From assembly GCF_030063455.1 (NCBI RefSeq), contig NZ_JASITB010000007.1, positions 1-64,000 on the forward strand: a stretch of DNA of 64,000 nt, read 5' to 3'. Position 1 is the stretch's first letter, and each line of letters opens with the position of its first letter. A program made the translations under genes and the position numbers. Shown one piece after another: positions 1-38,567 of the stretch. Origin of the DNA: Cryobacterium sp. PH31-O1. Lineage in GTDB: Bacteria; Actinomycetota; Actinomycetes; Actinomycetales; Microbacteriaceae. The notes beneath the pieces were generated by a model. The model saw nothing but the letters and a program-made list of their open reading frames with translations, did no database searches and was not told the origin of the DNA.

Positions 1-1
1 C

Positions 2-253
2 AACCTGAAGCACTTCAGCGACTGGAAAGCCATCGCCACCCCCGACGGCACCCTGCACTGGACCAGCCCCGCCGGCAAACACTACGCCACCGACCCCGCC
101 ACCCGCATGAGGCCCCCGCCTACAACACACCGACCCACCACCAGCCCAGAGCCGCCGGCCGCACCACCACCCGTGCCTAACCCGTGGGCCTCCGACTGGA
201 CCTCCGTCTGGCCCATCGATAACGCTGAGAACCCTGACCCCCAACCGTTCTAG
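2..253 (+). CDS. C-terminal end of a DUF222/HNH endonuclease-family protein (5' truncated by window edge)
   Basis: An open frame runs in from the left edge and stops with TAG at 251-253, giving 83 residues. It begins NLKHFSDWKAIATPDGTLHW and continues with a TSPAGKHY motif, then a long Pro/Thr-rich tail ending NPDPQPF. The 'DGT.HWTSPAG..Y' pattern followed by a low-complexity proline tail is typical of the end of the DUF222-plus-HNH proteins that are very numerous in actinobacteria. The HNH catalytic residues would lie upstream, outside the window, so activity cannot be judged. The family call is from memory of that pattern, and the exact paralogue cannot be named. Confidence 0.7.
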   Translation, partial: NLKHFSDWKAIATPDGTLHWTSPAGKHYATDPATRMRPPPTTHRPTTSPEPPAAPPPVPNPWASDWTSVWPIDNAENPDPQPF

Positions 254-285
254 GGGCCTTCTCGGCCGAGAGCAGAATCCTACTA

Positions 286-789
286 ATGAACAACGCCGGA
301 AACACCGTTAGCGGGACACTCCCGCTGAGTACCGCGCTGTTTGCGCATTATGTCGACGAGCACCCCGGTGTGCCACGGTCTTGCCGCAGATTGCTGCCGA
401 AGCGCGAGCTGGTCGACGGCTACCGTGCCGCCGGTGGCACCGGGCTGCTCTACTGCGAAGCTCCCCTCGCGTGGGCGCCCACCGAAGAGGCAGCCGTGAA
501 GGCCGCCCACACAACGAATGCGTGGTCGGTCACCGGCTGGAAGGTGATGGCTGAATTGCCAAACCTGGTGAATTTCGAGGCCGCGGCGGCCAGCGTGCGG
601 GAGGACGACATCCGTTCGCCGTACGCCTGTGGCCCCGACGTGGAGCGGCACCTTGAGGTGATCGGTCAGTTCACGGATGCGGGTTTCGACCACGTTGCCC
701 TCATGAATGCCGGCCCAGACCAGGACGGCTTCTTCGACTTCTTCGAGCGCACGCTTCGGTCCCGGCTGTTGTCGGCGGGCAGCCGATGA
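286..789 (+). pseudogene. C-terminal remnant of an F420-dependent LLM-class oxidoreductase
   Basis: From about residue 40 onward (ELVDGYRAAGG, then APLAWAPTEEAAVKAAH, then GPDQDGFFDFFE) the protein reads like the C-terminal half of LLM-class F420-dependent oxidoreductases of the F420-glucose-6-phosphate dehydrogenase-like group, which are normally about 320 residues. Only 167 codons remain, and the first 40 residues do not look like the family. The TIM-barrel N-terminus with most of the F420 pocket is missing. In the +1-shifted frame just upstream a short 'GLAAD' string resembles the family's preceding segment, so a frameshift as well as a deletion is possible. The 3' end overlaps the HAD gene by four bases (ATGA). 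It is probably non-functional, though a short protein could still be made. Confidence 0.7.
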
Positions 790-1448
790 CAGGCCGACGA
801 GCGGTGTTGTTCGACATCGACGGCACCCTGGTCGACTCGAACTATCTACGCGTCGATGCGTGGCACCGGGCGGTCCAAACGATGGGCGTCGACGTTGAAG
901 CGAGGCGCATCCACCGCTCCATCGGTCAGGATTCCGGCCAAATGCTCGACTCGCTCGTCGGTGACCGTGACGCTCACTGGGTGACCGAGGCGAAGCGACT
1001 GCATGCCCACAATTATTCATCGCTCGCCCCGCGACTGCGCGCGTTCCCGCACATCCACGAGCTGCTGAGCGTGCTCGCTGAACAGGGCCACATCGTCGTG
1101 CTCGCAACTTCGGCGCCGGAGGACGAACTGCGCATGCTGCTCGAGGTACTCGACTCAGCCGATGCCATTCATGCCACCACGAATTCTGACGACGTAGACG
1201 TGGCCAAACCTGACCACGACATCGTGCGGGTAGCGCTCGAACGCGCCGGGGTAGAGCCGACCGAGGCGATCTTCATCGGCGATTCGGTCTGGGACATGAT
1301 GGCGGCTTCCCGCGCTGGAGTGCAGCCGTTCGGAATGCCCTTAGGAGGCATTGCAGCCGAAATGCTCGTCGAAGCGGGCGCCGGTGCAGTTTTTGAGAAT
1401 CCCGCGGACCTTCTGGCCCGGCTCGCAGACCTCGGGCTCAGCGACTGA
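786..1448 (+). CDS. HAD-superfamily phosphatase (phosphoglycolate phosphatase-like)
   Basis: This 220-residue protein has all four HAD motifs: motif I FDIDGTLVDS (nucleophile D10, acid/base D12), motif II threonine/serine in VLATSAPED, motif III lysine K141 in AKPDHD, and motif IV GDSVWD (D166, D170). A helical cap lies between motifs I and II, as in subfamily I HADs such as Gph and beta-phosphoglucomutase. It should dephosphorylate a small phosphorylated metabolite in the cytosol, but the substrate cannot be read from the sequence. Its start overlaps the end of the LLM remnant by four bases, which suggests the two were once translationally coupled. Confidence 0.85.
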   Translation: MTGRRAVLFDIDGTLVDSNYLRVDAWHRAVQTMGVDVEARRIHRSIGQDSGQMLDSLVGDRDAHWVTEAKRLHAHNYSSLAPRLRAFPHIHELLSVLAEQGHIVVLATSAPEDELRMLLEVLDSADAIHATTNSDDVDVAKPDHDIVRVALERAGVEPTEAIFIGDSVWDMMAASRAGVQPFGMPLGGIAAEMLVEAGAGAVFENPADLLARLADLGLSD

Positions 1449-1759
1449 AACCAAATGAGCCATGTGCTGCAACCGGCGGCACTGCCTCAAGTTGCCTAAA
1501 TGTAAGGCATGAATAACATCGTTACCTTGAGCAGATTGAAGCCGCAATCCGCCGAGCGCATGTTCCTTCGAATCGTCGAACCCAGGGCGGATGTTGACAG
1601 CTTTTTCAGGGCGCCCCGCCACGACGATGCAGGCTCCCGACAAGAAAGAAGAGTTTGCATCGTGCCACTGACAACACAAATCCGGGCATAATCAGCATCA
1701 CTGCAGGGTTCGATACCCGCACGGCGATCGTTCTTGCCTGCAGGCGTATCGGGAGAACA
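1449..1759. other. Intergenic stretch without a convincing gene
   Basis: About 310 bases between the HAD gene and the thermonuclease. A small dyad (TGCCT at 1493-1497, AGGCA at 1505-1509) lies shortly after the HAD stop and may form a weak hairpin. A 60-codon frame at 1509-1691 has no family resemblance and no good ribosome-binding site. A TTGACA hexamer near 1586 could be a -35 box, but no matching -10 box is evident. Confidence 0.5.
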
Positions 1760-2866
1760 ATGTCATATGTATCGTCGAGCTTGAAAAACCGCGGCTGGTT
1801 GACTATCACGGCTTCCGTTGCGGCTGCAGCATTGTTGGTCATCGCGGGAATCACGTTTACCGCTGCGCCGGCCAATGCCGCCAAAGACGATCGCGCCGTC
1901 GTAATGCGCGTAATCGACGGCGATACCCTGGTGCTGAAAGCAGACTCAAAAGAGACACGGGTGCGCCTTCTGAACATTGACACCCCCGAAACAAAAGACC
2001 CGAACGAGCCGGTGGAATGTGGTGGCCCGGAAGCCTCGGCCTTTCTCACCGCGCTACTTCCCGTAGGGGCCAAGGTGACGCTGAAATATGACCGCGAGCG
2101 CCTCGACCGCTACGGACGCACGCTGGCCGCCGTCTATACCGCCAACGACAGGTTCGTCAGTGAGGAAATCGCTCGACAAGGCTACGGAATGGCGGTCACC
2201 TTTGGTGCTAATGACAAGAATTTTAAGACCGTGCAAGCCGCTCAAAAAGTCGCCCAAACCGAGTTTCGAGGGCTCTATTCAAAGACCACCGACTGCACCA
2301 TCCGCACCCAGGTCAAGGCCTTGAAGGCGGAGACGAACCAGCTTGCTGCGGTCAACAGTTCGGCCGCTCCGTCGAGTGAGGTGACAGCACTGGTCGCGCG
2401 CTCCGCCGCGCTCATAGCCGGCGTCGCTACGATTCAGCGCATGGCTGATCTGGATCAGCCCTCCATCGCGATGGCCATCCTGCTGGCGACACCGAAGATG
2501 GGCTACGCCAAGGGCCTGACGAACATGGACACGAAGGCACGGTTGGTGCACAAGAAACTGGCGGCCGCCGAGACGGCTGCGCTATCGCGAGAGGCCGCTG
2601 CGGCCGCCGCTGCCGCTGCACAGGCCGCCGCAGATGTTGAGGCCGCTCAGGCAGCTGCAGCAGCAGCACAGGCAACCGCTGCTGCGCAAGCGGCCGCCGA
2701 CGCCGCCGACGCCGCCGCGCGGGCTGCTGAGCAACAGCAGGTCGCTCCCAACGTTGCGCCCTCGGCTCCCAGCGTCGATACCTACACCGGATGCCGCGCC
2801 TACGGCAGCAACGGAACATCCGTCGATAACCAGGGTCGCCGATATACCAAGATCCCCTGCCCCTAA
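1760..2866 (+). CDS. Secreted thermonuclease (SNase-like) with Ala-rich linker and C-terminal Cys domain
   Basis: The start at 1760 is preceded by GGGAGA and gives 368 residues; the open frame extends further upstream without a better start. An N-terminal membrane-spanning or signal segment (about 12-40, ending APANA) is followed by the staphylococcal-nuclease fold. Its catalytic set is present: D53/D55 in IDGDT, R69, D74 and E77 in NIDTPETK, and R120 in DRYGR. It should degrade DNA and RNA outside the cell with calcium. Residues about 170-290 are helical. About 295-340 is an alanine-rich EAAAAA-type linker. The last 30 residues hold a two-cysteine domain (CRAYGSNG ... YTKIPCP) that recurs behind thermonucleases in related bacteria, possibly for wall attachment. 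It stands alone. Confidence 0.9.
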   Translation: MSYVSSSLKNRGWLTITASVAAAALLVIAGITFTAAPANAAKDDRAVVMRVIDGDTLVLKADSKETRVRLLNIDTPETKDPNEPVECGGPEASAFLTALLPVGAKVTLKYDRERLDRYGRTLAAVYTANDRFVSEEIARQGYGMAVTFGANDKNFKTVQAAQKVAQTEFRGLYSKTTDCTIRTQVKALKAETNQLAAVNSSAAPSSEVTALVARSAALIAGVATIQRMADLDQPSIAMAILLATPKMGYAKGLTNMDTKARLVHKKLAAAETAALSREAAAAAAAAAQAAADVEAAQAAAAAAQATAAAQAAADAADAAARAAEQQQVAPNVAPSAPSVDTYTGCRAYGSNGTSVDNQGRRYTKIPCP

Positions 2867-2880
2867 TCGACAAGTCGATT

Positions 2881-3160
2881 CGCCGTAAACCCGACATCGA
2901 CTACCTCGTGGTCGGCCCCGCGTCGTCTTCACCATTAACTCCAGACACCATGGCGGCAAGTAGATCTGGTTCGCCGAACGGTGCTTCCTGGTCAACGGCC
3001 AAAGGTACCCCTACCTTCGAAACTCCAAATTCGGGGCCACATCAAGATCCTTCAAGAGCGGATGCCTCTGCTCCTGTCCGCGCAGGTCGTTGAGGACTCG
3101 GCCGACCTGCTGGCACGAGCCTCAATCTCGAAGCCTGACCGCGGCGCCAGCTCGATCTTC
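2881..3160 (+). pseudogene. Decayed copy of a NERD-domain gene
   Basis: This stretch aligns base for base with the intact NERD gene downstream (3706-4521). 'GACATCGACTACCTCGT' at about 2893 matches 3957, 'CTACCTTCGAAACTCCA' at about 3011 matches 4078, and 'CGCAGG' near 3080 matches 4157. Three lesions are visible against the intact copy: loss of one base in the GPGGIF segment, an in-frame TAG where the intact gene has an AAG of the GKK motif, and a deletion of about seven bases after the TFEAT segment. The 5' third and the C-terminal transmembrane part are missing. It is therefore a diverged, dead paralogue, and the downstream end is approximate. Confidence 0.8.
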
Positions 3161-3235
3161 GTCGCGGCGTCTACTAGCGTGGTCAGACACGCTCGGGGCG
3201 ATTGATCTCTCTCCGTGACGAACGCGGAGGTCTCG

Positions 3236-3556
3236 ATGTCCACCCAGCAGACAACCCGCACCGCGAGGTCGCTCAGTTCCATCGCGCTCGGCATCGGCGT
3301 GGCCGCCGTTGTCGTGTTTGTGCTCGGATCGATCCTGCTGGCGCTGCTGCCCGGCAATCTTGTGGTGATCGGCGTCGTGACGGTGCTCTGCTATCTTCTG
3401 CCGATTGTCGGCATCGTCGTTGGCCACAACGCGTGCCGCCGCGAGGGCGCGCAGAAGTCCGCGAAGTTCGGGCTGATCCTGTCGTACATCGCCTTCGGTC
3501 TCGTCGTGATCCCGCTGCTGTTCGACATCGTCGTGCGGCTCACGCAGCTCGCCTGA
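3236..3556 (+). CDS. Small membrane protein of unknown function
   Basis: ATG at 3236 is preceded by GGAGG at a five-base spacing, so it is preferred over the GTG at 3215. The 106-residue protein has a short polar N-terminus (MSTQQTTRTARSL) and three hydrophobic segments at roughly 14-38, 42-62 and 80-100. A charged cytoplasmic loop (HNACRREGAQKSAKFG) lies between the second and third. The layout resembles DUF4190-type membrane proteins, but I cannot assign a family. It lies between the dead and the intact NERD copies, so it may have been carried along with the duplicated segment. Confidence 0.6.
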   Translation: MSTQQTTRTARSLSSIALGIGVAAVVVFVLGSILLALLPGNLVVIGVVTVLCYLLPIVGIVVGHNACRREGAQKSAKFGLILSYIAFGLVVIPLLFDIVVRLTQLA

Positions 3557-3705
3557 TCGACCGACTCTCGCGAGCGGATGCCGCTGCTCGGGTTTCCGCG
3601 CGCCCGTCGCGCTGATTGTGAAGCGCGTCGACAAATTGCACAACGCCGACCTCGTGCTCCAGGCCGGGATCTCCCGCTAGATTGGCACTAATCATCGGGG
3701 GATGC

Positions 3706-4521
3706 ATGACAACACAGCTACCGGGCATGCGTGACCAGATCGCCGCCCAATCGGTCATTGAAGAGTTGCTCCGCCAGCAACAGTCGATGCCACCGCGCAC
3801 GCGCTTCGCTCGGTTCTGGGGAATCAACCCGCTGGCCGCCGACAGCGTCGCCTGGTACCGCGGCGCCCAGGGCGAGATCGAGGTCGGCAGAATTCTCAGC
3901 CGGCTCCCGCCCGAGTGGCGAGCCTTCCATGCACTCCCCATCGGTAAAGCAGGCGCGGACATCGACCACCTCGTACTCGGCCCCGGCGGAATCTTCACCA
4001 TCAACACCAAACACCATCGCGGCAAGAAGATATGGGTCGCCGAACGGGTGTTCATGATCAACGGCCAAAAACAGCCCTACCTTCGAAACTCCACATTCGA
4101 GGCCACACGCGTCACGAAAATACTTCACGAGCGAATGCCGCAACTCCCGCCCGCGCAGGCCGTGATCGCGCTGGTCAGCCCCGCGTCGATCATGGTCAGG
4201 AAGAAGCCCGATGGCGTCAGCGTTCTGGATGCGATCAATTTGCGCCGGTGGCTTCTGAAGCGGCCACTGGAGCTCGACGAAGTCCAACTGGTAGAGCTCG
4301 CTGCCTTAGTAAATGCCCCCGCGACTTGGCCTGCACCCGCGTCGCCACCGAGTCCGAACCTGTCGGCACAATTCGCTGTGATCGACAGCGAAGTGAAAAC
4401 CGCGCGGGTCCGGCGCGTGACGTGGACCCTGCTCAGCTTCGCGACGGTGGCCACGCTTGCCGTCTTCGTCGGTTTGCCCCTCTACAACCGGTTGGTCCTA
4501 GGGCTCATTGGCGTACCGTGA
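3706..4521 (+). CDS. NERD-domain protein with C-terminal membrane anchor
   Basis: ATG at 3706 follows a GGGGGA ribosome-binding site. The longer frame from TTG 3682 lacks one. Of 271 residues, about 52-160 form a nuclease-related domain (NERD): AQGEIEVGRIL, then GADIDHLVLGPGGIFTINTK with D85/D87 and K102, the residues expected of a PD-(D/E)xK-like core. The tail at about 235-262 is a single hydrophobic helix, so the protein is probably membrane-anchored with the nuclease domain in the cytoplasm. NERD proteins are predicted DNA-processing nucleases; few have been tested. A decayed copy lies 600 bases upstream, and the Nudix/helicase pair begins 85 bases downstream on the same strand. Confidence 0.85.
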   Translation: MTTQLPGMRDQIAAQSVIEELLRQQQSMPPRTRFARFWGINPLAADSVAWYRGAQGEIEVGRILSRLPPEWRAFHALPIGKAGADIDHLVLGPGGIFTINTKHHRGKKIWVAERVFMINGQKQPYLRNSTFEATRVTKILHERMPQLPPAQAVIALVSPASIMVRKKPDGVSVLDAINLRRWLLKRPLELDEVQLVELAALVNAPATWPAPASPPSPNLSAQFAVIDSEVKTARVRRVTWTLLSFATVATLAVFVGLPLYNRLVLGLIGVP

Positions 4522-4605
4522 CGACTACGGGTGGCGTCGGGCGCCCTGGAATCGCGCTGGCTAAGCTGACGTTACGGATTGACAGCTAGGCATCGGAGTT
4601 CACCA

Positions 4606-5004
4606 GTGAAAAAGAGAATTAATGTTGTCGGCGCCGTGCTGACGCGCGGACAGACAATTCTCGCAGCACGTCGTAGTTCGAAAATGTCGCTGCCGGATAT
4701 GTGGGAGTTTCCCGGGGGAAAGATTGAGGCGAACGAAACGCCTGAGCAGGCTTTGCTCCGCGAACTCGACGAAGAGTTGCTCTGCTCGGCGGAGATCGGC
4801 GCGCTCGTCGAAACCACTGAGCATGAGTACGACTTTGGGATCGTTGTCCTAACGACCTACTACTGCTCTCTCATTGGCGAAGAGCCCCGGCTGACGGAAC
4901 ATTCAGAAATTCGGTGGGTTAAGGTCGCAGAGCTGGACCAGCTCGATTGGGCACCTGCTGATATTCCTGCCGTCGTGCGGGTAATGAAAGACTTTCGCGA
5001 GTGA
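4606..5004 (+). CDS. Nudix hydrolase, MutT-like (predicted NTP pyrophosphohydrolase)
   Basis: The GTG at 4606 with an upstream GGAG gives a 132-residue protein starting MKKRINVVGAVL. The Nudix box runs from G38 (GGKIEANETPEQ) to RELDEEL (R52, E53, E56, E57). The usual glycine after the EE pair is replaced by leucine. The sequence LPDMWEFPGGK is characteristic of the MutT/CTP-pyrophosphohydrolase branch that cleaves (d)NTPs to NMP and pyrophosphate. Its last four bases overlap the helicase gene (5001-5004), so the two are almost certainly co-translated. Its coupling to a helicase/nuclease suggests a role in a defence or repair complex rather than in housekeeping dNTP clean-up. That role is inferred. 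Confidence 0.85.
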   Translation: MKKRINVVGAVLTRGQTILAARRSSKMSLPDMWEFPGGKIEANETPEQALLRELDEELLCSAEIGALVETTEHEYDFGIVVLTTYYCSLIGEEPRLTEHSEIRWVKVAELDQLDWAPADIPAVVRVMKDFRE

Positions 5005-7910
5005 GCGCGACCAGCCGTCAACTTACGTTCGATAACAACTTTGGATTCTTAAACTCCCAGGTCAAAGCTGACCAGATCTACAACCCGACGCTTGTGTCGA
5101 ATTCCGACGGTAACACCATGCTTCGAACGATTCGTGAGGAACTTAAGCGCTCGCGTCGTTTCGTCTTCTCGGTCGCCTTTGTCTCGCCGAGCGCGATAGC
5201 CCTGCTCAAGCAGGCGATGATCGACTTTCGAGGTTCGGGTACGATCATCACCTCCACCTACTTGGGTTTCAACTCGCCTGCAGCCTTTCGCGAACTCCTC
5301 AATCTCGAGGGCATCAACGTTTTAGTGCATCCAGATTCCTCTGCTGGCTTTCATGCCAAGGGCTACATCTTTGAGCAGGAGTCGAGCACTACGGCGATCG
5401 TAGGCAGTTCAAACCTGACGGATCGCGCGCTCCTGAACAACCACGAGTGGAATCTACGCTTTTCCGCCCTCCCGGACGGGGACATAGTCCAGCAGCTCAA
5501 TCGAGCCGCGCAGGCTCACATCGATGCGTCCATTCCCCTCACTGAACACTGGATTGACGACTATGAGCTGACGTGGACGGCGCCCATACGCGAGTCTTCA
5601 CCCGGAATCGGCCTGATTGAGCCGGAAACTGGTTTGCCCCTCGATGGCGTGATTCAGCCCAACGCCATGCAGATCGAGGCGCTTGCTGAGATTGCGGCGC
5701 TGCGCGAGACCGGGGAAAAACGCGCGGTCGTCATTTCTGCAACCGGAACTGGAAAGACGATTCTCTCGGCGCTCGACGTGCGCGCTTACGCACCGAAACG
5801 GATGCTTTTCATAGTGCATCGAGAGCAGATCTTGGACCGCGCGATACACGAATTCAAGCGCGTACTTGAGGCCCCGGACGGCAATTTCGGCAAGTTTGTG
5901 GGAGCAAAGAGAGAGCTCGATCGTCGCTACGTGTTCGCCTCGATTCAGTCACTTTCGAGGCCCGAGAATCTTGCGGCGATTGAGCCAGATGCGTTTGACT
6001 ACGTTCTGATCGACGAAGTCCACCGAGCGGGCGCCGCGAGCTACAGAAGCGTAATTGACCATCTCAAGCCGGCCTTTCTGCTCGGAATGACAGCGACTCC
6101 CGAACGAAGCGACGATTTCAACGTCTTTGAGCTCTTTGATTTTAATGTGCCTTACGAAATTCGATTGCAGAAGGCGCTTGAAGCTGACATGCTGGCTCCG
6201 TTTCACTACTACGGAGTGACCGACTACGTCAAAGATGGTGAGGTCATTGACCAACTCGCCGAACTTGGTCGGCTCGTCGCCGCTGAGCGGGTCGACCACC
6301 TCCTGTCCTCGATCGAAAAGTACGGACACGCGGGTGCACCGGTACGAGGGCTAATCTTCTGCAGCAGAAACGATGAGGCGGCTGAGCTTTCTGCACTTCT
6401 CAATCAGCGCAAAGTCCACGGCCGACAGCTGCGAACCCGCGCGTTAAGTGGTTCCGACCCTGTCGATGAGCGCGAACTAGCAGTGCAAATGCTGGAGCGT
6501 GGCGAGCTCGACTACATAGCTACCGTCGACATTTTCAACGAAGGTATCGATATCCCGTCGGTCAATCAAGTCGTAATGCTCAGGCAAACACTCTCGAGCA
6601 TTGTATTCACCCAGCAGCTCGGTCGGGGACTCCGCAAGTCAGCGGGCAAGGACCACTTGGTGGTGATTGACTTCATTGGCAACTACGACAACAATTATCT
6701 AATCCCTATCGCGCTCTTTGGCGACAGCAGCCTAAACAAGGATTCGATCCGCAAAAAGATCATCGACGCGCAAGAGGCCGGCGCCATAGCCGGACTATCC
6801 AGCGTCAACTTTGATGCGATTGCGCGAGAGCGAATTTTCGCGTCACTTGCGCGTACGACTCTCGACAGTATGACGAATCTCAAGAAGTCCTTCCTTGAAC
6901 TGCAGAACCGCCTAGGCAGAGCCCCCCTACTAATTGACTTCGCGCGCTTCGACTTGGTTGATCCGACCGTCATCGCGATTAAGCAAAATAACTATTGGCG
7001 TTTCCTCAACAAAGTCGGTGCACGCGAAGCAATAGCCGACGAATATGAAGATGCCGTTCTCACGTTTCTGTCTGGAGAGCTACTCAACGGCAAGCGGCCC
7101 CATGAACTCCTACTCATCAAAGATCTTCTGTCGAACGAGGGCAGCCTGGAAGCGGCGACTTTCCAACATTCCCTCGCAGGAAGTCGTCTGGCGGCTGATC
7201 CCGCGACTCTCGCTTCTGTCCTCCGCGTGCTAGACCTCAGTTTCTACACCAAAGCGGAAGCCCTAAAATTCGGCGCGGTGCCGATCCTTAGCCTGAATCA
7301 CGGGCTTTACATTCTCAGCGAGCAATTCATTTCGACTTGGCGGAGGTCTTTGGTGTTCCAAGAGCACGTGAATGACGTCATAGAAACTGGTCTTTACTTA
7401 GCCCGACACCGCCACAGTTGGAGTGGAGGACTCGAAGTCGGTGAACGCTATTCACGCAAGGATGTTTGCCGCCTACTTAACTGGAAGTCGAATCAACAAA
7501 GCAACATTAACGGGTATAAAGCGGACATTTTTTCACAGACCTGCCCCATATTTGTCACCTATCAAAAAGGGGAGCATATCTCGGACACTACCAAGTATGA
7601 AGACGAGTTTGTCAACCGCTCGACTTTGAGCTGGTTCACGACAAGTAGGCGCACGCTCGCGAATGTCCAGGTGAAAGCGATTGTCGAGAATAAGATGCCC
7701 CTCCACCTTTTCGCAAAAAAAGATGATGCAGACGGGATCGACTTCTTTTACTTAGGAAAGGTGACATCACGAGATGCTCGGCAGACGAAGATGTCGGGAG
7801 GTTCTGGTCACGACATCGTGTCCATGACTTTGGGACTTGCGAATCCAATTGATTCCAGCCTTTTCGAGTACTTTGCTGCTCGCGCCTTGGGGGTTGTAGC
7901 TCGTGCTTGA
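5001..7910 (+). CDS. PLD-like nuclease / superfamily II helicase / DUF3427 fusion
   Basis: The protein has 969 residues with three parts. Residues 1-190 form a phospholipase-D-like nuclease domain with one HxK motif (H118-A-K120) and GSSN at 135-138. Residues about 215-610 are an SF2 helicase: Walker A SATGTGKT at 246-253, DEVH at 338-341, TAT at 364-366, and motif VI QQLGRGLR at 538-545. Residues about 620-969 match the DUF3427 region found behind such helicases. Start GTG 5001 overlaps the Nudix stop. The gene is visibly richer in A/T codons than its neighbours, consistent with horizontal transfer. Such PLD-helicases are known from defence islands, and a function against foreign DNA is likely but inferred. 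No methyltransferase or specificity subunit lies next to it. Confidence 0.9.
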   Translation: MSATSRQLTFDNNFGFLNSQVKADQIYNPTLVSNSDGNTMLRTIREELKRSRRFVFSVAFVSPSAIALLKQAMIDFRGSGTIITSTYLGFNSPAAFRELLNLEGINVLVHPDSSAGFHAKGYIFEQESSTTAIVGSSNLTDRALLNNHEWNLRFSALPDGDIVQQLNRAAQAHIDASIPLTEHWIDDYELTWTAPIRESSPGIGLIEPETGLPLDGVIQPNAMQIEALAEIAALRETGEKRAVVISATGTGKTILSALDVRAYAPKRMLFIVHREQILDRAIHEFKRVLEAPDGNFGKFVGAKRELDRRYVFASIQSLSRPENLAAIEPDAFDYVLIDEVHRAGAASYRSVIDHLKPAFLLGMTATPERSDDFNVFELFDFNVPYEIRLQKALEADMLAPFHYYGVTDYVKDGEVIDQLAELGRLVAAERVDHLLSSIEKYGHAGAPVRGLIFCSRNDEAAELSALLNQRKVHGRQLRTRALSGSDPVDERELAVQMLERGELDYIATVDIFNEGIDIPSVNQVVMLRQTLSSIVFTQQLGRGLRKSAGKDHLVVIDFIGNYDNNYLIPIALFGDSSLNKDSIRKKIIDAQEAGAIAGLSSVNFDAIARERIFASLARTTLDSMTNLKKSFLELQNRLGRAPLLIDFARFDLVDPTVIAIKQNNYWRFLNKVGAREAIADEYEDAVLTFLSGELLNGKRPHELLLIKDLLSNEGSLEAATFQHSLAGSRLAADPATLASVLRVLDLSFYTKAEALKFGAVPILSLNHGLYILSEQFISTWRRSLVFQEHVNDVIETGLYLARHRHSWSGGLEVGERYSRKDVCRLLNWKSNQQSNINGYKADIFSQTCPIFVTYQKGEHISDTTKYEDEFVNRSTLSWFTTSRRTLANVQVKAIVENKMPLHLFAKKDDADGIDFFYLGKVTSRDARQTKMSGGSGHDIVSMTLGLANPIDSSLFEYFAARALGVVARA

Positions 7911-7936
7911 CCTGTGCACCCCTTAGTAATATCGGT

Positions 7937-7963
7937 GCCGTTCACGCCGTTCACGCCGTTCAC
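7937..7963. repeat. Three tandem copies of a 9-bp unit
   Basis: GCCGTTCAC is repeated exactly three times at 7937-7945, 7946-7954 and 7955-7963, between the helicase stop and the next gene. It is a short slippage-type repeat. No function is apparent, though it lies in the only spacer available for a promoter of the exonuclease gene. Confidence 0.8.
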
Positions 7964-8064
7964 GCAGTACCGCCACAACCGTTGACACCCCTCGTCCACG
8001 GGCCGCGCCCGCGTCTACCGTCTCGGTACAGTCAAACGACCACCCCAATCAGTTCAGGAGCACC

Positions 8065-9291
8065 ATGCCCGGTTTCGCCGTCATCGACTTCGAGACCACC
8101 GGACTTTTCGCGGGCGGCAGCCACCGGGTCATCGAGGTGGCCGTCGTGCACGTCAGCGCCGACGGCCAGACCGAAGGCCAGTGGGAGACGCTCATTAACC
8201 CCGGGCGTGACCTTGGGCGCCAGGACATCCACCACGTGCGCGCTGCCGACGTCATGCAGGCGCCGACCTTCGCCGAGGTAGCCCCACAGCTCGTGGCGCT
8301 GCTTGACGGCCGCGTCGTCGTGGCCCACAATGCCGCCTTTGACTTGCGCTTTCTTCTGGCCGAACTTGCCCGCGCCGGTTACCCGGTTACAGAGCCCGTG
8401 ATTAGCCTCTGCACCATGCAGCTAGCCCGCGACTTTCTGCCCGGCACCGGTCGCGCGCTCGCCGACTGCTGCGCCGCCTACGACATCGATCTCATCGGAG
8501 CACACCGCGCTTCCGTCGACACCTATGCCACCGCCCAGCTGCTCAGCCACTACATCACCGGCGCTGCCGACCCGATGCTGTGGGCCGACGCCCTCGACCG
8601 AGCCGCCACCTACCGCTGGCCGACTTTGCCGCCAGCGGAGCGCGCGTGGTACCCGCGGCCGCAATATGCGACCGAGCAGACGGCATCCGCTTTTCTGGAA
8701 CGCATCAGCGTGCGACTGCCTGAGATTACCGGGCCGGCTGAACACCAGGACTACCTCGCCCTGCTCGATCGTTGCTTGCTCGACCGGCAGCTTTCCGCCC
8801 ACGAAGCGCAGGCGCTCGTGCAGCTGGCTGAGGAGCTCGGCCTCAGCCGGCACCGGTGTGAGCTGCTGCACGGCGAGTACTTCGCCGCGCTCGCCCGCAT
8901 CGCCTGGGCCGACGGCGTGCTCACCACAGATGAGATGGCCGACCTCGTCGACGTCGCCAACCTGCTCGACATCTCAGCGGATGCCCTCGATGCAGCGCTC
9001 GACTGCTCAGAGCCGGCGGTTGTGGTGGTGGCCAGTGCCCACTTTGAACTGCACCTCGGCGACCTCGTTGTGCTCACCGGTGAGATGATGCGGCCGCGCA
9101 GTGACTGGGAGTCGGAGCTGCTGGCCCGCGGCTTCGCCCCGAAGAGTGCGGTGACCAAGAAGGTCACGCTGCTCGTAGCCGCCGACCCGGACTCGCTGTC
9201 GGGCAAGGCCCGCAAGGCCCGCGACTACGGAATTCCGATCGTGGGGGAGGCCGCGCTCGCCCGACTGGCCGGTGCATTTCCGCTGCGCTGA
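8065..9291 (+). CDS. DEDDh 3'-5' exonuclease with TerB-like and BRCT domains
   Basis: The protein has 408 residues. The N-terminal 170 are a DnaQ-type exonuclease: FAVIDFETTG (D8, E10), HNAAFDLRF, and GAHRASVDT supplying the H and D of a DEDDh site. Residues about 225-310 are an acidic helical block (ALARIAWADGVLTTDEMADL) resembling TerB/TerB-like domains. Residues about 325-405 read as a BRCT domain (LVVLTGEM, TLLVAADPDSLSGKARKARD). This order resembles DnaQ-like exonucleases that are not part of the replicase and probably act in DNA repair. The gene ends at a strong palindromic terminator shared with the convergent YccF gene. Confidence 0.88.
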   Translation: MPGFAVIDFETTGLFAGGSHRVIEVAVVHVSADGQTEGQWETLINPGRDLGRQDIHHVRAADVMQAPTFAEVAPQLVALLDGRVVVAHNAAFDLRFLLAELARAGYPVTEPVISLCTMQLARDFLPGTGRALADCCAAYDIDLIGAHRASVDTYATAQLLSHYITGAADPMLWADALDRAATYRWPTLPPAERAWYPRPQYATEQTASAFLERISVRLPEITGPAEHQDYLALLDRCLLDRQLSAHEAQALVQLAEELGLSRHRCELLHGEYFAALARIAWADGVLTTDEMADLVDVANLLDISADALDAALDCSEPAVVVVASAHFELHLGDLVVLTGEMMRPRSDWESELLARGFAPKSAVTKKVTLLVAADPDSLSGKARKARDYGIPIVGEAALARLAGAFPLR

Positions 9292-9308
9292 AGTCTGGTT
9301 TTTCCACT

Positions 9309-9334
9309 GCTCCGGCATGATTTCATGCCGGAGC
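9309..9334. terminator. Bidirectional terminator hairpin
   Basis: Perfect 12-bp arms, GCTCCGGCATGA (9309-9320) and TCATGCCGGAGC (9323-9334), are separated by two bases. The hairpin lies between the converging exonuclease and YccF genes and can serve both. Confidence 0.85.
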
Positions 9335-9369
9335 ACGCGGTATCCGCTCTGTGAAGACGTGTTGACCTG

Positions 9370-9744
9370 TTAGGGCGTGGCGACGATTTTCTTGCCGAGG
9401 GGCATGAGCGCGACCGGGATCAGCTTGAAGTTGGCAATTCCGAAGGGGATGCCGATGATGGTCACGCAGAGAGCGATGCCGGAGAGCAGGTGTTCGAGGG
9501 CGATCCACCAGCCGGCCAGAATGACCCAGACGACATTGCCGAGCAGCGACCCGACGCCGGCGCCCGGGGCGTCGACCACGGTCTTGCCGAACGGCCAGAG
9601 TGCGTAGACACCGATGCGCGCTGCCGCGATACCCCAGGGAATAGTCACGATGAGAATGCACATGATGAGCGCGGCGAACATGTAGCCGACGAACAGCCAG
9701 AAGCCTGACAGTACCAGCCAGATGATGTTGAGAAGGGTCTTCAT
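9370..9744 (-). CDS. YccF-domain membrane protein
   Basis: The start at 9744 (MKTLLNIIWLVLSGFWLF) gives 124 residues, the usual size of YccF proteins; the longer frame to 9828 adds an unrelated leader. Two similar halves are visible, each a hydrophobic hairpin followed by an 'IPxGIA' turn: VTIPWGIAAARIG, then a second copy TIIGIPFGIANFKL, each ending in a basic PFGK/PLGK motif. This is the internally duplicated YccF fold in the inner membrane. The function of the family is unknown. Confidence 0.88.
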   Translation of the reverse strand: MKTLLNIIWLVLSGFWLFVGYMFAALIMCILIVTIPWGIAAARIGVYALWPFGKTVVDAPGAGVGSLLGNVVWVILAGWWIALEHLLSGIALCVTIIGIPFGIANFKLIPVALMPLGKKIVATP

Positions 9745-9807
9745 CGTGGATCTATTCTCGCAGGTGGCGCGTGGCACGATCGCAGGTCTCCGGGCACAAT
9801 AGAGGCC

Positions 9808-10218
9808 ATGGCCCACCGTCAACGGCACCCTGCCGACTCTGACCCTGCAACTGACCGGGCGGACAAGACCTGCGCGTCCTGTGGGCGCCGAATCGAGTGG
9901 CGGGCCAAGTGGGCTTCCCGTTGGGAGTCAGTGAAGTACTGCTCGGCAGCCTGCCGCTCTCATGGGGTCAACGCGAAAGACCTCCAGCTGGAAACGACCA
10001 TCGTGTCATTGCTCGACAAACGTGCGCGGGAGTCCACGATTTGCCCGTCGGACGCAGCGCGAGCCATCGGCGGCGAGGAGTGGCGCGAGCTGATGGAACC
10101 GGCGCGCCGAGCGGCACGCCGGATGGTCGCTCGCGGCGAATTGCAGATCACCCAGGGCGGCGTTGTGGTCGATCCGTCGACCGCCAAGGGACCGATTCGG
10201 TTGCGGCGGGCGCGCTAA
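9808..10218 (+). CDS. DUF2256 / DUF3253 fusion protein
   Basis: The protein has 136 residues. Residues 20-55 are a small zinc-ribbon (CASCGRRIEWRAKW ... VKYCSAACR) typical of DUF2256, with four cysteines that could bind one zinc. Residues 60-136 match DUF3253, a basic winged-helix-like domain (SLLDKRARES, PARRAARRMVARGEL, IRLRRAR). The two are often fused. Binding to nucleic acid is plausible from the zinc-ribbon and basic helix but has not been shown. It lies just upstream of the Phd/PIN module, separated by the palindromic operator. Confidence 0.85.
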   Translation: MAHRQRHPADSDPATDRADKTCASCGRRIEWRAKWASRWESVKYCSAACRSHGVNAKDLQLETTIVSLLDKRARESTICPSDAARAIGGEEWRELMEPARRAARRMVARGELQITQGGVVVDPSTAKGPIRLRRAR

Positions 10219-10239
10219 TTGGCTCGGCGGCCGATCTGG

Positions 10240-10260
10240 ACTTAGTCCAGTGGACTAAGT
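10240..10260. promoter_or_regulatory. Perfect palindrome, probable operator of the Phd/PIN module
   Basis: ACTTAGTCCA (10240-10249), one central G (10250), and TGGACTAAGT (10251-10260) form a perfect 10-bp dyad ending 11 bases before the antitoxin ATG. Phd/YefM antitoxins bind palindromes at this position to repress their own operon. The site probably overlaps the promoter, and the short distance suggests a short or absent leader. Confidence 0.75.
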
Positions 10261-10271
10261 ACGCTGGCTGC

Positions 10272-10538
10272 ATGACCGAGATCGTGAACATCCACGACGC
10301 GAAGACCCAATTATCGCGACTGCTTCAGCGCGTCGAGGGTGGGGAGCGGGTCGTCATTGCCCGGGCGGGCAAGCCGATTGCCGACTTAGTGCCTCATCAA
10401 AGCGGCAGCGGGCTGCAATTTGGGGCGCTCGAGGGCCAGATCTGGGTGGCCGCAGACGCATTCTCGTGGCCGAACGACGAGATCGATGCCATGTTCTACG
10501 GAGATCCCACACCCCTGCACACTGATGATCCTTCTTGA
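10272..10538 (+). CDS. Phd/YefM-family antitoxin
   Basis: The protein has 88 residues. The N-terminus MTEIVNIHDAKTQLSRLL, then GERVVIARAGKPIADLVP, is the DNA-binding Phd/YefM fold. The C-terminal 35 residues (ALEGQIWVAADAF ... DEIDAMFYG) form the usual disordered toxin-wrapping tail. It should neutralise the downstream PIN ribonuclease and repress the operon through the palindrome at 10240-10260. The open frame extends far upstream, but ATG 10272 fits the family length and the operator spacing. It overlaps the toxin by 14 bases. Confidence 0.9.
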   Translation: MTEIVNIHDAKTQLSRLLQRVEGGERVVIARAGKPIADLVPHQSGSGLQFGALEGQIWVAADAFSWPNDEIDAMFYGDPTPLHTDDPS

Positions 10539-10908
10539 TACCAACGCGTTGCTCTGGGTGCTCGGCGATCCGAAACAGTTCGGCGCGAATTCCCTCCGTC
10601 TGTTGGCCGAAAGCGACGAAGTCTACTCGTCTCCAGTTTCGCTCTTCGAGATCTCGATCAAGACCATGCTGGGCAAGCTCTCCGTTCCGCCGGACTTCGC
10701 CGCCGCTGCTCGCGCTAATGGGATCCAAGAATTACCGTTGAACCACCGCCACGTTGAGGCTGTGGGAGTCTTCACTGAACTCGCCCGACATGACCCGTTC
10801 GACCGGCTGATTCTCGCGCAGGCATACGTGGAGGGAATGACCCTTCTCACGTCCGATCGGGTCTTGATCTCATTGGGGCGGCAATTCGTGCGCGACGCCC
10901 GGACATGA
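10525..10908 (+). CDS. PIN-domain ribonuclease toxin (VapC-like)
   Basis: ATG 10525 lies inside the antitoxin gene and gives 127 residues starting MILLDTNALLWVLGD. The PIN acidic residues are D5, E42 (SLFEISIK), D90/D93 in HDPFDRLILAQA, and D111 in LLTSD. It belongs to the PIN subgroup paired with Phd/YefM antitoxins rather than classical VapB. Free toxin is expected to cleave an RNA target, often tRNA or rRNA, with magnesium. The overlap with the antitoxin implies coupled translation. Confidence 0.9.
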   Translation: MILLDTNALLWVLGDPKQFGANSLRLLAESDEVYSSPVSLFEISIKTMLGKLSVPPDFAAAARANGIQELPLNHRHVEAVGVFTELARHDPFDRLILAQAYVEGMTLLTSDRVLISLGRQFVRDART

Positions 10909-10943
10909 TCAGTGTCAGTGTGACGAAGAGAGGAGCGATCGAC

Positions 10944-11534
10944 ATGACAGTGACCTGCGACATGATGGTCTCGGAGGACGGCTACGCGGCGGGCGTGAAT
11001 CAGAGCCTGGAGCATCCGCTGGGAGAAGGCGGCGAACGACTGGCACGCTGGCGGTTCGAGCGGCCCGACGAGAATGCCGCGGAGATCGCCGCCATCGCGA
11101 CGGCGGGCGCCTACATCATGGGGCGTAATATGTTCGGCCCGGGTCGTGGTGAGTGGGACGACGACTGGACGGGGTGGTGGGGTGACGACCCGCCGTATCA
11201 CGCACCGGTTTTCGTGCTGACGCACTACCCGCGAGCACCGCTGGAAATGCACGGCGGCACGACGTTCACGTTCGTGACCGACGGCATCGAGTCGGCGCTG
11301 GAGCAGGCTCGCGCGGCTGCGGGGGAGCGCGAGGTGGCGATCGCGGGCGGGGCAGCCACTGCGCGGCAATATTTGTCGGCCGGACTGATCGACGAACTGC
11401 GGCTGCACGTGGCGACGGCGGTGCTCGGCGCCGGGGAGCCGCTCTTGACGGGACTCGACGAACTCAACTTGAAACAGATCGTCTCGGTGCAGCGGGAGCT
11501 GGTCACCCATGTCACGTATCGGGTGGTGCGCTGA
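10944..11534 (+). CDS. Dihydrofolate-reductase-like protein (RibD C-terminal family)
   Basis: ATG 10944 follows AGAGGAG by nine bases and is preferred over 10905, giving 196 residues. The sequence MTVTCDMMVSEDGYAAG, then AYIMGRNMFGPG, VFVLTHYPR and EVAIAGGAATARQYL, is the RibD_C/DHFR-like fold with an NADPH-binding pattern. Members outside the riboflavin operon are reductases of unknown substrate; true folate reduction is unlikely. It is sandwiched between two toxin-antitoxin modules. Confidence 0.85.
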   Translation: MTVTCDMMVSEDGYAAGVNQSLEHPLGEGGERLARWRFERPDENAAEIAAIATAGAYIMGRNMFGPGRGEWDDDWTGWWGDDPPYHAPVFVLTHYPRAPLEMHGGTTFTFVTDGIESALEQARAAAGEREVAIAGGAATARQYLSAGLIDELRLHVATAVLGAGEPLLTGLDELNLKQIVSVQRELVTHVTYRVVR

Positions 11535-11549
11535 AGAGGTCGTGTGCCC

Positions 11550-11864
11550 CTAGTCCAGTTGTAGGGCGAGGCGCAGGGCCTCGTCGATGAGGTTGAGTTC
11601 GTCGTGACTGACGTGTCCGGCGAGCACGCCGAGGCGTTCCGGCGCAACGGCGGATGTCTGCTCGACGAGCACCTGCGTGAGTTCGCCGCCGATCGAAATC
11701 GAGGGGCGAAAGCTTCTCGGCTGGGCGGAGCGCGAGGTAGGGGCGACCAGCACTGTCGAGAGCATCAGATCATCGGACTGCAGAATGACCGCGAAACGCA
11801 CGCCGGTCTGTTCGTGGCCGCGGGTGCCGCGGGGTGCGCGCAGCCGGTGGATGTCACCACGCAC
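11550..11864 (-). CDS. MazF/PemK-family toxin
   Basis: GTG at 11864 (MRGDIHRLRAPRG) overlaps the antitoxin stop by 11 bases and gives 104 residues; the longer frame to 11894 lies inside the antitoxin gene. Motifs RGHEQTGVRFAVILQ, then LVAPTSRSA and QVLVEQTSAVAPERLG, follow the MazF/PemK pattern of an SH3-like mRNA interferase. The basic RG..EQ.G.R segment contains the catalytic-region residues. It should cleave mRNA at short motifs when the antitoxin is lost. Confidence 0.88.
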   Translation of the reverse strand: MRGDIHRLRAPRGTRGHEQTGVRFAVILQSDDLMLSTVLVAPTSRSAQPRSFRPSISIGGELTQVLVEQTSAVAPERLGVLAGHVSHDELNLIDEALRLALQLD

Positions 11865-12084
11865 GTAGGTCGTCCAGATCGCGGAGCACGGCACGGCTCT
11901 CTGTAAGGTCGGCAGCGTCAGTCAGCAGAGCGGTGGACTCGCGCCGCATGAGGTCACGCCGCTTCTGGCGTGCCGCATCGATTAGGGCCTGACGAATCGC
12001 GGCCGAGACGGTCGCGCCGTCCGCTGTCAGCTCGTCGAGTGCCTGTTGGGTGAGTTCGTCGGTGCGGAAGTTGACTATCGCCAT
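11854..12084 (-). CDS. Ribbon-helix-helix antitoxin partner of MazF
   Basis: The protein has 76 residues. MAIVNFRTDELTQQALDEL, then SAAIRQALIDAARQ, is a short beta strand plus two helices of a ribbon-helix-helix DNA-binding domain. The rest (ALLTDAADLTESRAVLRDL) is an acidic tail suited to block MazF. It precedes and overlaps the toxin gene, the standard antitoxin-first order. Autoregulation is expected. The upstream spacer contains two direct GCGTA copies around 12091-12107 but no clear palindrome. Confidence 0.85.
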   Translation of the reverse strand: MAIVNFRTDELTQQALDELTADGATVSAAIRQALIDAARQKRRDLMRRESTALLTDAADLTESRAVLRDLDDLRAW

Positions 12085-38562: not shown

Positions 38563-38567
38563 GATCG

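Follow-up and report, generated by a model that had tools for sequence, protein, structure and literature searches.

We analysed a 64,000-nucleotide stretch of the genome of Cryobacterium sp. PH31-O1 (contig NZ_JASITB010000007.1, positions 1 to 64,000; hereafter the window) and, in particular, two overlapping genes on its forward strand. The first (4606..5004) encodes a Nudix hydrolase of 132 amino acids that resembles NudG, and the second (5001..7910) a protein of 969 amino acids which, on sequence grounds, is a member of the SauUSI-type Type IV restriction enzymes, with a correspondingly predicted activity. The reading that we favour, and to which we give only slightly less than an even chance, is that the two genes form a restriction module directed against C5-modified cytosine, in which the Nudix protein would shield the host from self-restriction. 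That the pair serves in defence at all is very likely. An initial annotation of this DNA had proposed a defensive pairing of a Nudix gene with a nuclease-helicase gene, and this is supported in part: defence and linkage have held up, and protection of the host, one of its suggestions, is the reading that we favour; what it missed were the relationship with SauUSI, the role of the SRA domain and the likely substrates of a NudG-like enzyme, 5-methyl-dCTP and 5-hydroxymethyl-dCTP.

The enzyme and its Nudix neighbour

Pfam divides the 969-residue protein into PLDc_2 (5e-8), ResIII (5.7e-38), Helicase_C (3.2e-11) and DUF3427 (4.9e-79), the PADLOC model mREase_IV matches it at 2.4e-233, and its residues 14-958 align end to end with the solved chain 7clg_A (E 9.6e-227). 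PDB entry 7CLG, which has 953 residues and carries the database name 'Putative helicase', we take to be SauUSI; in view of this match, we have rejected a wholly new defence module. The PLD motif is present as one HxK per chain (H118 and K120), and the combination of a single-HxK PLD nuclease, an SF2 helicase and DUF3427 given in the initial annotation is thus borne out. The histidine and lysine of the motif are found in 81 of 81 aligned family members, as are the Walker A lysine and the motif II aspartate of the SF2 part. The closest relatives of the enzyme among named genomes belong to Cryobacterium.

SauUSI has been described as a PLD nuclease dimer, each chain having a single HxK, followed by an SF2 ATPase, a coupler and a target recognition domain (TRD) of the SRA fold (Tumuluri et al., PMC7913695). 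In the same description, the modelled pocket for 5-methylcytosine (5mC) is made up of Tyr831, Phe841, Ile842, Trp868 and Asp858, with Met829 entering the gap (PMC7913695). Following the alignment with 7clg_A, the window enzyme has Tyr, Phe, Val (for Ile842), Trp and Asp at the pocket positions, and Asn at the position of the finger residue Met829. Of the 81 family members, 79 have the pocket Tyr, all 81 the Phe, 79 a Val or Ile, 75 the Trp and 74 the Asp, and most (65 of the 81) have Tyr at the finger position. Since the large protein is of the SauUSI type, its DUF3427 would be an SRA domain reading 5-methylcytosine. SauUSI is reported to cleave DNA containing 5mC or 5-hydroxymethylcytosine (5hmC), and not DNA containing N4-methylcytosine (m4C) (PMC3874153); by analogy, the window enzyme probably shreds foreign DNA with methylated cytosine.

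As for the smaller gene, the start at GTG 4606 is preceded by GGAG at 4595-4598 and agrees with the usual beginning of the family ('MKK.I.VVGA'), an earlier in-frame TTG being present at 4579. The four-base overlap (GTGA, 5001..5004) was correctly described before, with the Nudix frame ending at 5004 and the large frame starting with GTG at 5001. In the protein, Pfam finds PF00293 NUDIX (3.2e-20), and the Nudix box GX5EX7REUXEE is kept, with Leu in place of the last Gly of the box. The PADLOC candidate PDC-S07 (model PDLC04899, which has no curated cut-off) matches residues 11-137 at 1.7e-52. The NCBIfam models for MutT and NudG both match, the NudG model with the higher score (5.6e-27, 94.2 bits), which lies below its cut-off of 156 bits, and we therefore call the protein NudG-like and do not file it as NudG. 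Its solved relatives are, best first, 5x1x (9.8e-48), 3ees, 3gwy, 3hhj, 5zrc (named MutT2) and 2rrk (CTP pyrophosphohydrolase). In MutT, Asn119 contacts 8-oxoguanine; the corresponding column, D118 of NudG, holds Asp in the window protein and in 66 of 66 SauUSI-linked sequences of our first alignment.

The substrates of the window Nudix can be approached through its characterised relatives. What the kinetic literature writes as 5-MeOH-dCTP we take to be 5-hydroxymethyl-dCTP. For the Bacteroides fragilis protein Q5LBB1 (3GWY), the reported values of kcat/Km are 4.8e6 for 5-Me-dCTP, 4.4e6 for 5-MeOH-dCTP, 6.7e6 for 5-Me-CTP and 8.5e4 for 5-OH-dCTP, and those of NudG 1.3e6 for 5-methyl-dCTP and 4.7e4 for CTP (PMC5158307). 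A second source cites 3e5 for NudG on 5-methyl-dCTP and gives a measured value of 2.8e3 for MutT (PMC3744803). Judging from these kinetics, both bases that SauUSI cuts in DNA are, in their free forms, substrates for relatives of the Nudix, and, by analogy with NudG and Q5LBB1, the window protein itself probably prefers C5-substituted dCTP. The same family relationships also allow for general cleaning of the nucleotide pool, in which 8-oxo-dGTP, 5-hydroxy-dCTP and 2-hydroxy-dATP would be removed and the position of the gene would reflect co-expression linked to stress and no chemistry in common with the enzyme. This we consider improbable. It draws on the matches to both the MutT and the NudG model and on the reported activity of NudG on 2-OH-dATP (PMC5158307), while the Asp that replaces MutT Asn 119 in the aligned NudG-type members speaks against it; its genomic side is weighed below.

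Recurrence of the pairing

Within the genus, a full-length enzyme gene is present in 13 of 57 Cryobacterium genomes, our own included, and the longest ORFs (open reading frames) of the Nudix and the enzyme overlap in all 13, so that the arrangement is not a matter of chance. The surroundings of the enzyme gene differ between species of the genus. Consequently, rare linkage together with vertical inheritance among housekeeping neighbours, which the initial annotation had named as grounds for abandoning a defence role, does not describe the enzyme.

A wider scan of named genomes took in 233 relatives of the enzyme, of which the best 80 were kept; it used patterns from four proteins and favours close relatives. 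Of the 80 SauUSI-like loci, 63 have a Nudix gene as a direct neighbour, namely, upstream in 55 and downstream in 4 of the 77 with full-length enzyme ORFs, and in four more (L111, L096, L140, L141) by position, the start of L111 being over-extended and the enzyme ORF partial or split in the other three. The commonest spacing is -4, as in the window (16 of the 55 upstream pairs, measured on the longest ORFs). L123, in which the contig end cuts the Nudix gene, was scored as adjacent, and L155, which starts at a contig edge, as one of the 17 loci without an adjacent Nudix. The genomes of the other 16 include 13 with a PDC-S07 match of at least 150 bits beyond the fetched stretch; in L131, this distant match is the copy adjoining a second enzyme gene. 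Eight of the 13 distant copies were inspected, and an enzyme gene stands beside none of them. Seven, from Salinicoccus, Jeotgalicoccus and Aliicoccus (L376-L382), score 202-210 on a profile of linked Nudix sequences, that is, in the range of the linked sequences themselves, and the eighth (L383) scores 167. Among the matches listed for loci without a Nudix, no replacement pyrophosphatase was seen.

Counts over whole genomes agree with this picture. In Actinomycetota, the full-length enzyme is present in 4 of 276 genomes (our own included), with an adjacent Nudix in 4 of 4; in Bacillota, it is present in 8 of 249 (the centre genome included), with a Nudix adjacent in 6 of 8 and about 14 kb away in one. 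Of 61 Staphylococcus genomes, 29 (the centre genome included) carry the enzyme gene, which is interrupted by stops in five, and the Nudix is adjacent by coordinates in 29 of 29; 2 genomes hold the Nudix alone, 30 hold neither gene and 0 hold the enzyme without the Nudix (Fisher 2.3e-15 for co-occurrence, relatedness ignored). Both centre genomes, G295 and G297, were selected as carriers of the pair, and without them the figures become 5 of 7 in Bacillota and 28 of 28 in Staphylococcus. Conservation of the pairing elsewhere, which had been put forward as one way to examine the idea, is thus far beyond chance. In four Staphylococcus genomes (G604, G561, G595, G580), an enzyme gene with stops lies beside a stop-free Nudix, and in G548 both genes are broken. 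Such asymmetric decay is suggestive, and we have set it aside as an argument since the enzyme gene is seven times longer.

In Staphylococcus aureus, the gene directly upstream of a SauUSI homologue in NZ_CP077890 is annotated '(deoxy)nucleoside triphosphate pyrophosphohydrolase', and its product is identical to PDB 5x1x, which was deposited as 'Mutator mutT protein', at each of the 127 residues compared. The SauUSI frame in this record (L315, 3959-9953) is fragmented and is followed, on the same linear record, by a second copy in inverted orientation, an arrangement that may be an assembly fault. A second S. aureus record, an unverified phage contig, has an intact enzyme frame of 953 amino acids, and the Nudix gene ends one base before it. 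Thus, SauUSI, the most thoroughly studied Type IV enzyme, has a Nudix partner of this kind as well. A restriction role for the 5X1X protein was not found in the openly licensed literature.

Plasmid and phage-collection records matching the enzyme number 14 and 71, respectively. Five of each were opened, and the Nudix is adjacent in 4 plasmid and 4 phage records, among which are plasmids of Hymenobacter, Lactiplantibacillus and Latilactobacillus. No Bacteroidota were covered other than through records of these two kinds. Of the remaining two records, one, from Fusobacterium, has no Nudix, and the other, a faecal contig (L317), is broken and contains a Nudix fragment. On the Lactiplantibacillus plantarum plasmid (L314), we also observed a MazG-like gene (PF12643, 8856-9176) directly downstream of the SauUSI-like gene, which, with the Nudix, makes two nucleotide pyrophosphatases around the restriction gene.

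The link follows the reader domain in part. With flanks of 1.5 kb, some of them cut by contig ends, the PLD-SF2 relatives split into classes. One, without a match to the SRA profile, has proteins of 670-883 amino acids, mostly near 790, with DUF3427 absent in the two checked by Pfam; here, a Nudix neighbour is found in 0 of 17 loci. A further class (class B) has proteins of about 1,000-1,200 amino acids, and in all five that were examined Pfam finds a divergent DUF3427; four class-B loci with an adjacent Nudix were found from the Nudix side (L227, L233, L261, L262). It seems that DUF3427 is needed for the link with the Nudix, yet does not ensure it. For general cleaning of the pool, the repeated pairing with DUF3427-bearing enzymes, set against the 0 of 17 for relatives without the domain, is a second difficulty. 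That said, near relatives of the Nudix do stand alone in many Bacillota, and one lies, by eye, in a housekeeping position in the actinomycetotal genome G027, as such a role would have it.

Neither gene order nor descent is uniform. The Nudix is mostly upstream on the same strand; in Domibacillus and a few others it follows the enzyme gene in the same orientation, and in three genomes, G207 and G260 of Actinomycetota and G460 of Bacillota, it lies downstream and convergent. On a tree of 210 Nudix sequences, changes between linked and unlinked number 14, as against a mean of 69.8 and a minimum of 59 in 200 shuffles, the labels coming from stretches with flanks of 1.5-7 kb and the enzyme-based sampling enriching linked members. 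In one clade of 96 sequences, 94 are linked (the fragment in L317 included), the other two being the Staphylococcus copies without an enzyme. Other linked sequences belong to separate lineages. In one of these, a clade (support 0.965) that includes 3GWY of B. fragilis, the four remaining members all lie beside a DUF3427 enzyme, three of the four having come from enzyme-based searches. Because order and strand vary and linked Nudix genes belong to several lineages, the pairing has recurred and is not one inherited operon. What is more, this bears on whether the two genes merely share islands without any functional dependence, which we regard as very improbable. Both genes do lie in a variable island of low GC, and some genomes have one without the other, as hitchhiking would predict; the variable order and strand, the recruitment of separate Nudix lineages and the retention of the Nudix in trans when unlinked all argue the other way.

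Proposed function of the module

In the module that we propose, the SRA domain would flip out 5-methyl- or 5-hydroxymethylcytosine in incoming DNA, as modelled for SauUSI, the SF2 ATPase would drive translocation, and the paired PLD domains would cut both strands, as published for SauUSI. The Nudix, following its characterised relatives, would hydrolyse 5-methyl-dCTP and 5-hydroxymethyl-dCTP to the monophosphates. These modified nucleotides could be salvaged from methylated DNA that has been shredded or could be the product of an infecting phage, and by keeping them out of replication the Nudix would prevent SauUSI targets from being built into the host chromosome. It would thereby provide an immunity function for an enzyme that presumably has no methyltransferase of its own. 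Pfam, applied one by one to the eight proteins encoded at 286-9288, finds no DNA methyltransferase among them. Taken further, the Nudix could be a dedicated immunity protein acting on the nucleotide pool, such that the module polices C5-modified cytosine both as free dNTP and in the double helix; this we hold to be plausible, at somewhat below an even chance. Protection of the host from a modified nucleotide, one of the options in the initial annotation, is accordingly the reading favoured here, and its other option, sensing of nucleotides followed by cutting, finds no support in our data.

The same chemistry could also be turned on the invader in two layers, with the Nudix destroying the 5-hydroxymethyl- or 5-methyl-dCTP pool of a phage, which could then not complete its modified DNA, and the enzyme cutting whatever modified DNA is made nonetheless. 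We consider this unlikely, yet it is the main rival to our reading. Both 5-MeOH-dCTP and 5-Me-dCTP are substrates of Q5LBB1 and SauUSI cuts 5hmC DNA, according to the sources cited above, and the scattered distribution within the genus (13 of 57) and the presence of the pair on three plasmids would suit an attack on the pool. In Salinicoccus and Jeotgalicoccus, solo Nudix genes of the SauUSI clade are kept in trans, not adjacent to an enzyme gene, and two Staphylococcus genomes hold the Nudix without the enzyme; these cases fit the cleaning of the pool at least as well. Since self-protection and attack on the pool share their chemistry, the two are not separable from sequence.

Several observations weigh against a self-protection module. 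SauUSI alone is reported to suffice both in vitro and when cloned in Escherichia coli (PMC3874153); E. coli has NudG, so that activity there without the partner is not decisive. Substrate kinetics for a SauUSI-linked Nudix were not found in the openly licensed literature. In a wider set of sequences, Asp118 is present in 102 of 102 SauUSI-linked and 97 of 97 unlinked members, and in 7 of 8 linked to class B (one gap); since unlinked relatives have it without exception, it is a mark of the NudG type, and we have rejected it as a signature of the module. An adjacent Nudix is found in 0 of 21 class-B loci of Actinomycetota (16 of them with an SRA match), in 0 of 2 in the genus of the window and in 1 of the 4 from the Bacillota genome sample. 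The enzyme occurs without a strong Nudix match in L125 (best 99 bits), in L134, in the metagenome-assembled genome L143 and in the Bacillota genome G471, and without a Nudix within 5 kb in a Fusobacterium record, so that the Nudix is not strictly required. Conversely, of the 241 Bacillota genomes that lack a full-length enzyme, 70 have a member of the Nudix family (at least 110 bits), in varied contexts, and in G027 (L069) the gene lies, by eye, between pheT-like and tsaE/tsaB-like genes. Finally, the genome under study has one gene resembling cytosine-5 methyltransferases (PF00145, a frame of 588 amino acids; L064, contig C9, around 887285-888907), in a patch that looks phage-like by eye; if its product were active on the target of the restriction enzyme, the cell should suffer.

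To our knowledge, a Type IV enzyme is usually regarded as acting by itself, a partner being unnecessary because the host lacks the modification. In the openly licensed literature, SauUSI and nudix, as well as nudix, DUF3427 and restriction endonuclease, are mentioned together only in unrelated passages, and type IV restriction, nudix and 5-methylcytosine give no match; the words nudix and mutT have 0 occurrences in the text of the SauUSI mechanism paper (PMC7913695). A study of Streptococcus suis names PDC-S07 and RM (restriction-modification) type IV as the sole consistently co-localised pair among 24 co-occurring ones, with no mention of nudix or mutT (PMC12813430). A recurrent partner whose characterised relatives destroy the modified nucleotide in its free form suggests that Type IV restriction carries a risk of self-restriction, through recycling or infection, and that there is a way round it. 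If true, this would explain how a host of a Type IV enzyme, without a methyltransferase to mark its own DNA, survives the recycling of methylated nucleotides. The title of the mechanism paper (PMC7913695) presents SauUSI as a major barrier to gene transfer in S. aureus, and the overlooked gene upstream of SauUSI would then be part of the restriction system.

Genomic setting and known counterparts

The pair is, as noted in the initial annotation, richer in A and T than its surroundings. The GC content is 0.554 for the Nudix gene and 0.539 for the enzyme gene, with third-position GC (GC3) of 0.62-0.63 for both, as compared with 0.623 (GC3 0.757) for the NERD gene directly upstream of the Nudix (3682-4521; PF08378, 8.4e-13) and 0.679 (GC3 0.822) for the DEDDh exonuclease gene downstream of the enzyme (8065-9291). 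Of the 'NERD genes and broken genes' said to flank the pair, this one NERD gene is confirmed; neither broken genes nor a second NERD gene came to light, no systematic search for them having been made. A blastn comparison of window positions 1-12000 with loci around the exonuclease gene places the approximate right edge of a variable island at 7956..7993, where nucleotide similarity to members of the genus that lack the pair at this site resumes; this is so in all but one of the nine closest exonuclease-gene relatives, the exception carrying the enzyme gene too. An exact empty site was rejected, as the relatives share sequence only from about 7956-7993 and have other DNA upstream, which is the edge of an island.

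Spread by phages as a rule was likewise rejected, as IMG/VR gave one weak relative of the enzyme among 58 pattern matches. In 13 viral contigs (L319-L331), there is a NudG-like Nudix (46-51% identical to 3GWY), and the PLD-helicase is absent in the fetched stretch. Counter to this rejection, five of the 71 phage-collection records match the enzyme over at least 80% of its length; the five opened are unverified contigs without annotation, and some phages may thus carry the enzyme.

The exonuclease matches the PADLOC candidate PDC-S48 (5.9e-170), its relatives lie near a Nudix/SauUSI pair in 4 of 14 related loci (L076, L077, L079, L085), and the genome has a second copy (47%) on contig C14. Elsewhere in the window, a protein of 956 amino acids on the reverse strand (35875-38745) matches, with its C-terminal part, DpdE (4.1e-189) and ZorD (5.9e-96), and could be an ordinary SNF2 helicase. 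Among the 48 window ORFs, for which a Pfam tally lists 25 of 73 families, one matches the DarT model (1.1e-26), two mad2 and one mad3. In the taxonomic family of the window, genome G225 has a related Nudix gene (141 bits), in divergent orientation to a neighbour that resembles, by eye, a gene of the thymidylate synthase type (L070, 6516-7967).

The proteins of the module can be set beside four known counterparts. The window Nudix matches the PDC-S07 model, and in S. suis PDC-S07 and RM type IV are reported to be co-localised in 23 of 23 cases (PMC12813430). This model also matches E. coli below 1e-30, there presumably NudG, and a survey reports it in 99% of Enterobacter genomes (PMC12851794); for this reason, the label alone is no sign of defence. 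It probably covers both a part of the module and housekeeping NudG, the latter being counted as a defence candidate. With NudG/Orf135 of E. coli, a pyrophosphohydrolase of CTP, dCTP and 5-methyl-dCTP, the window Nudix shares 36% identity over 125 amino acids, the Nudix box, the Asp at NudG position 118 and the C-terminal APADIP motif; unlike in the window, a restriction gene is absent beside nudG in the K-12 stretch shown. B. fragilis Q5LBB1, a hydrolase of C5-substituted (d)CTP and the third-best solved relative, is 36% identical over 124 amino acids, although it belongs to a separate lineage of the Nudix family. As for SauUSI, the window enzyme differs in being about 42% identical to a S. 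aureus homologue and in having Asn for Met829 in the finger. The two are nevertheless alike in length class (953 versus 969 amino acids), in the domain order of PLD, SF2, coupler and SRA/DUF3427, in the HxK motif, in the Tyr, Phe, Asp and Trp of the pocket, and in the same kind of Nudix gene directly upstream.

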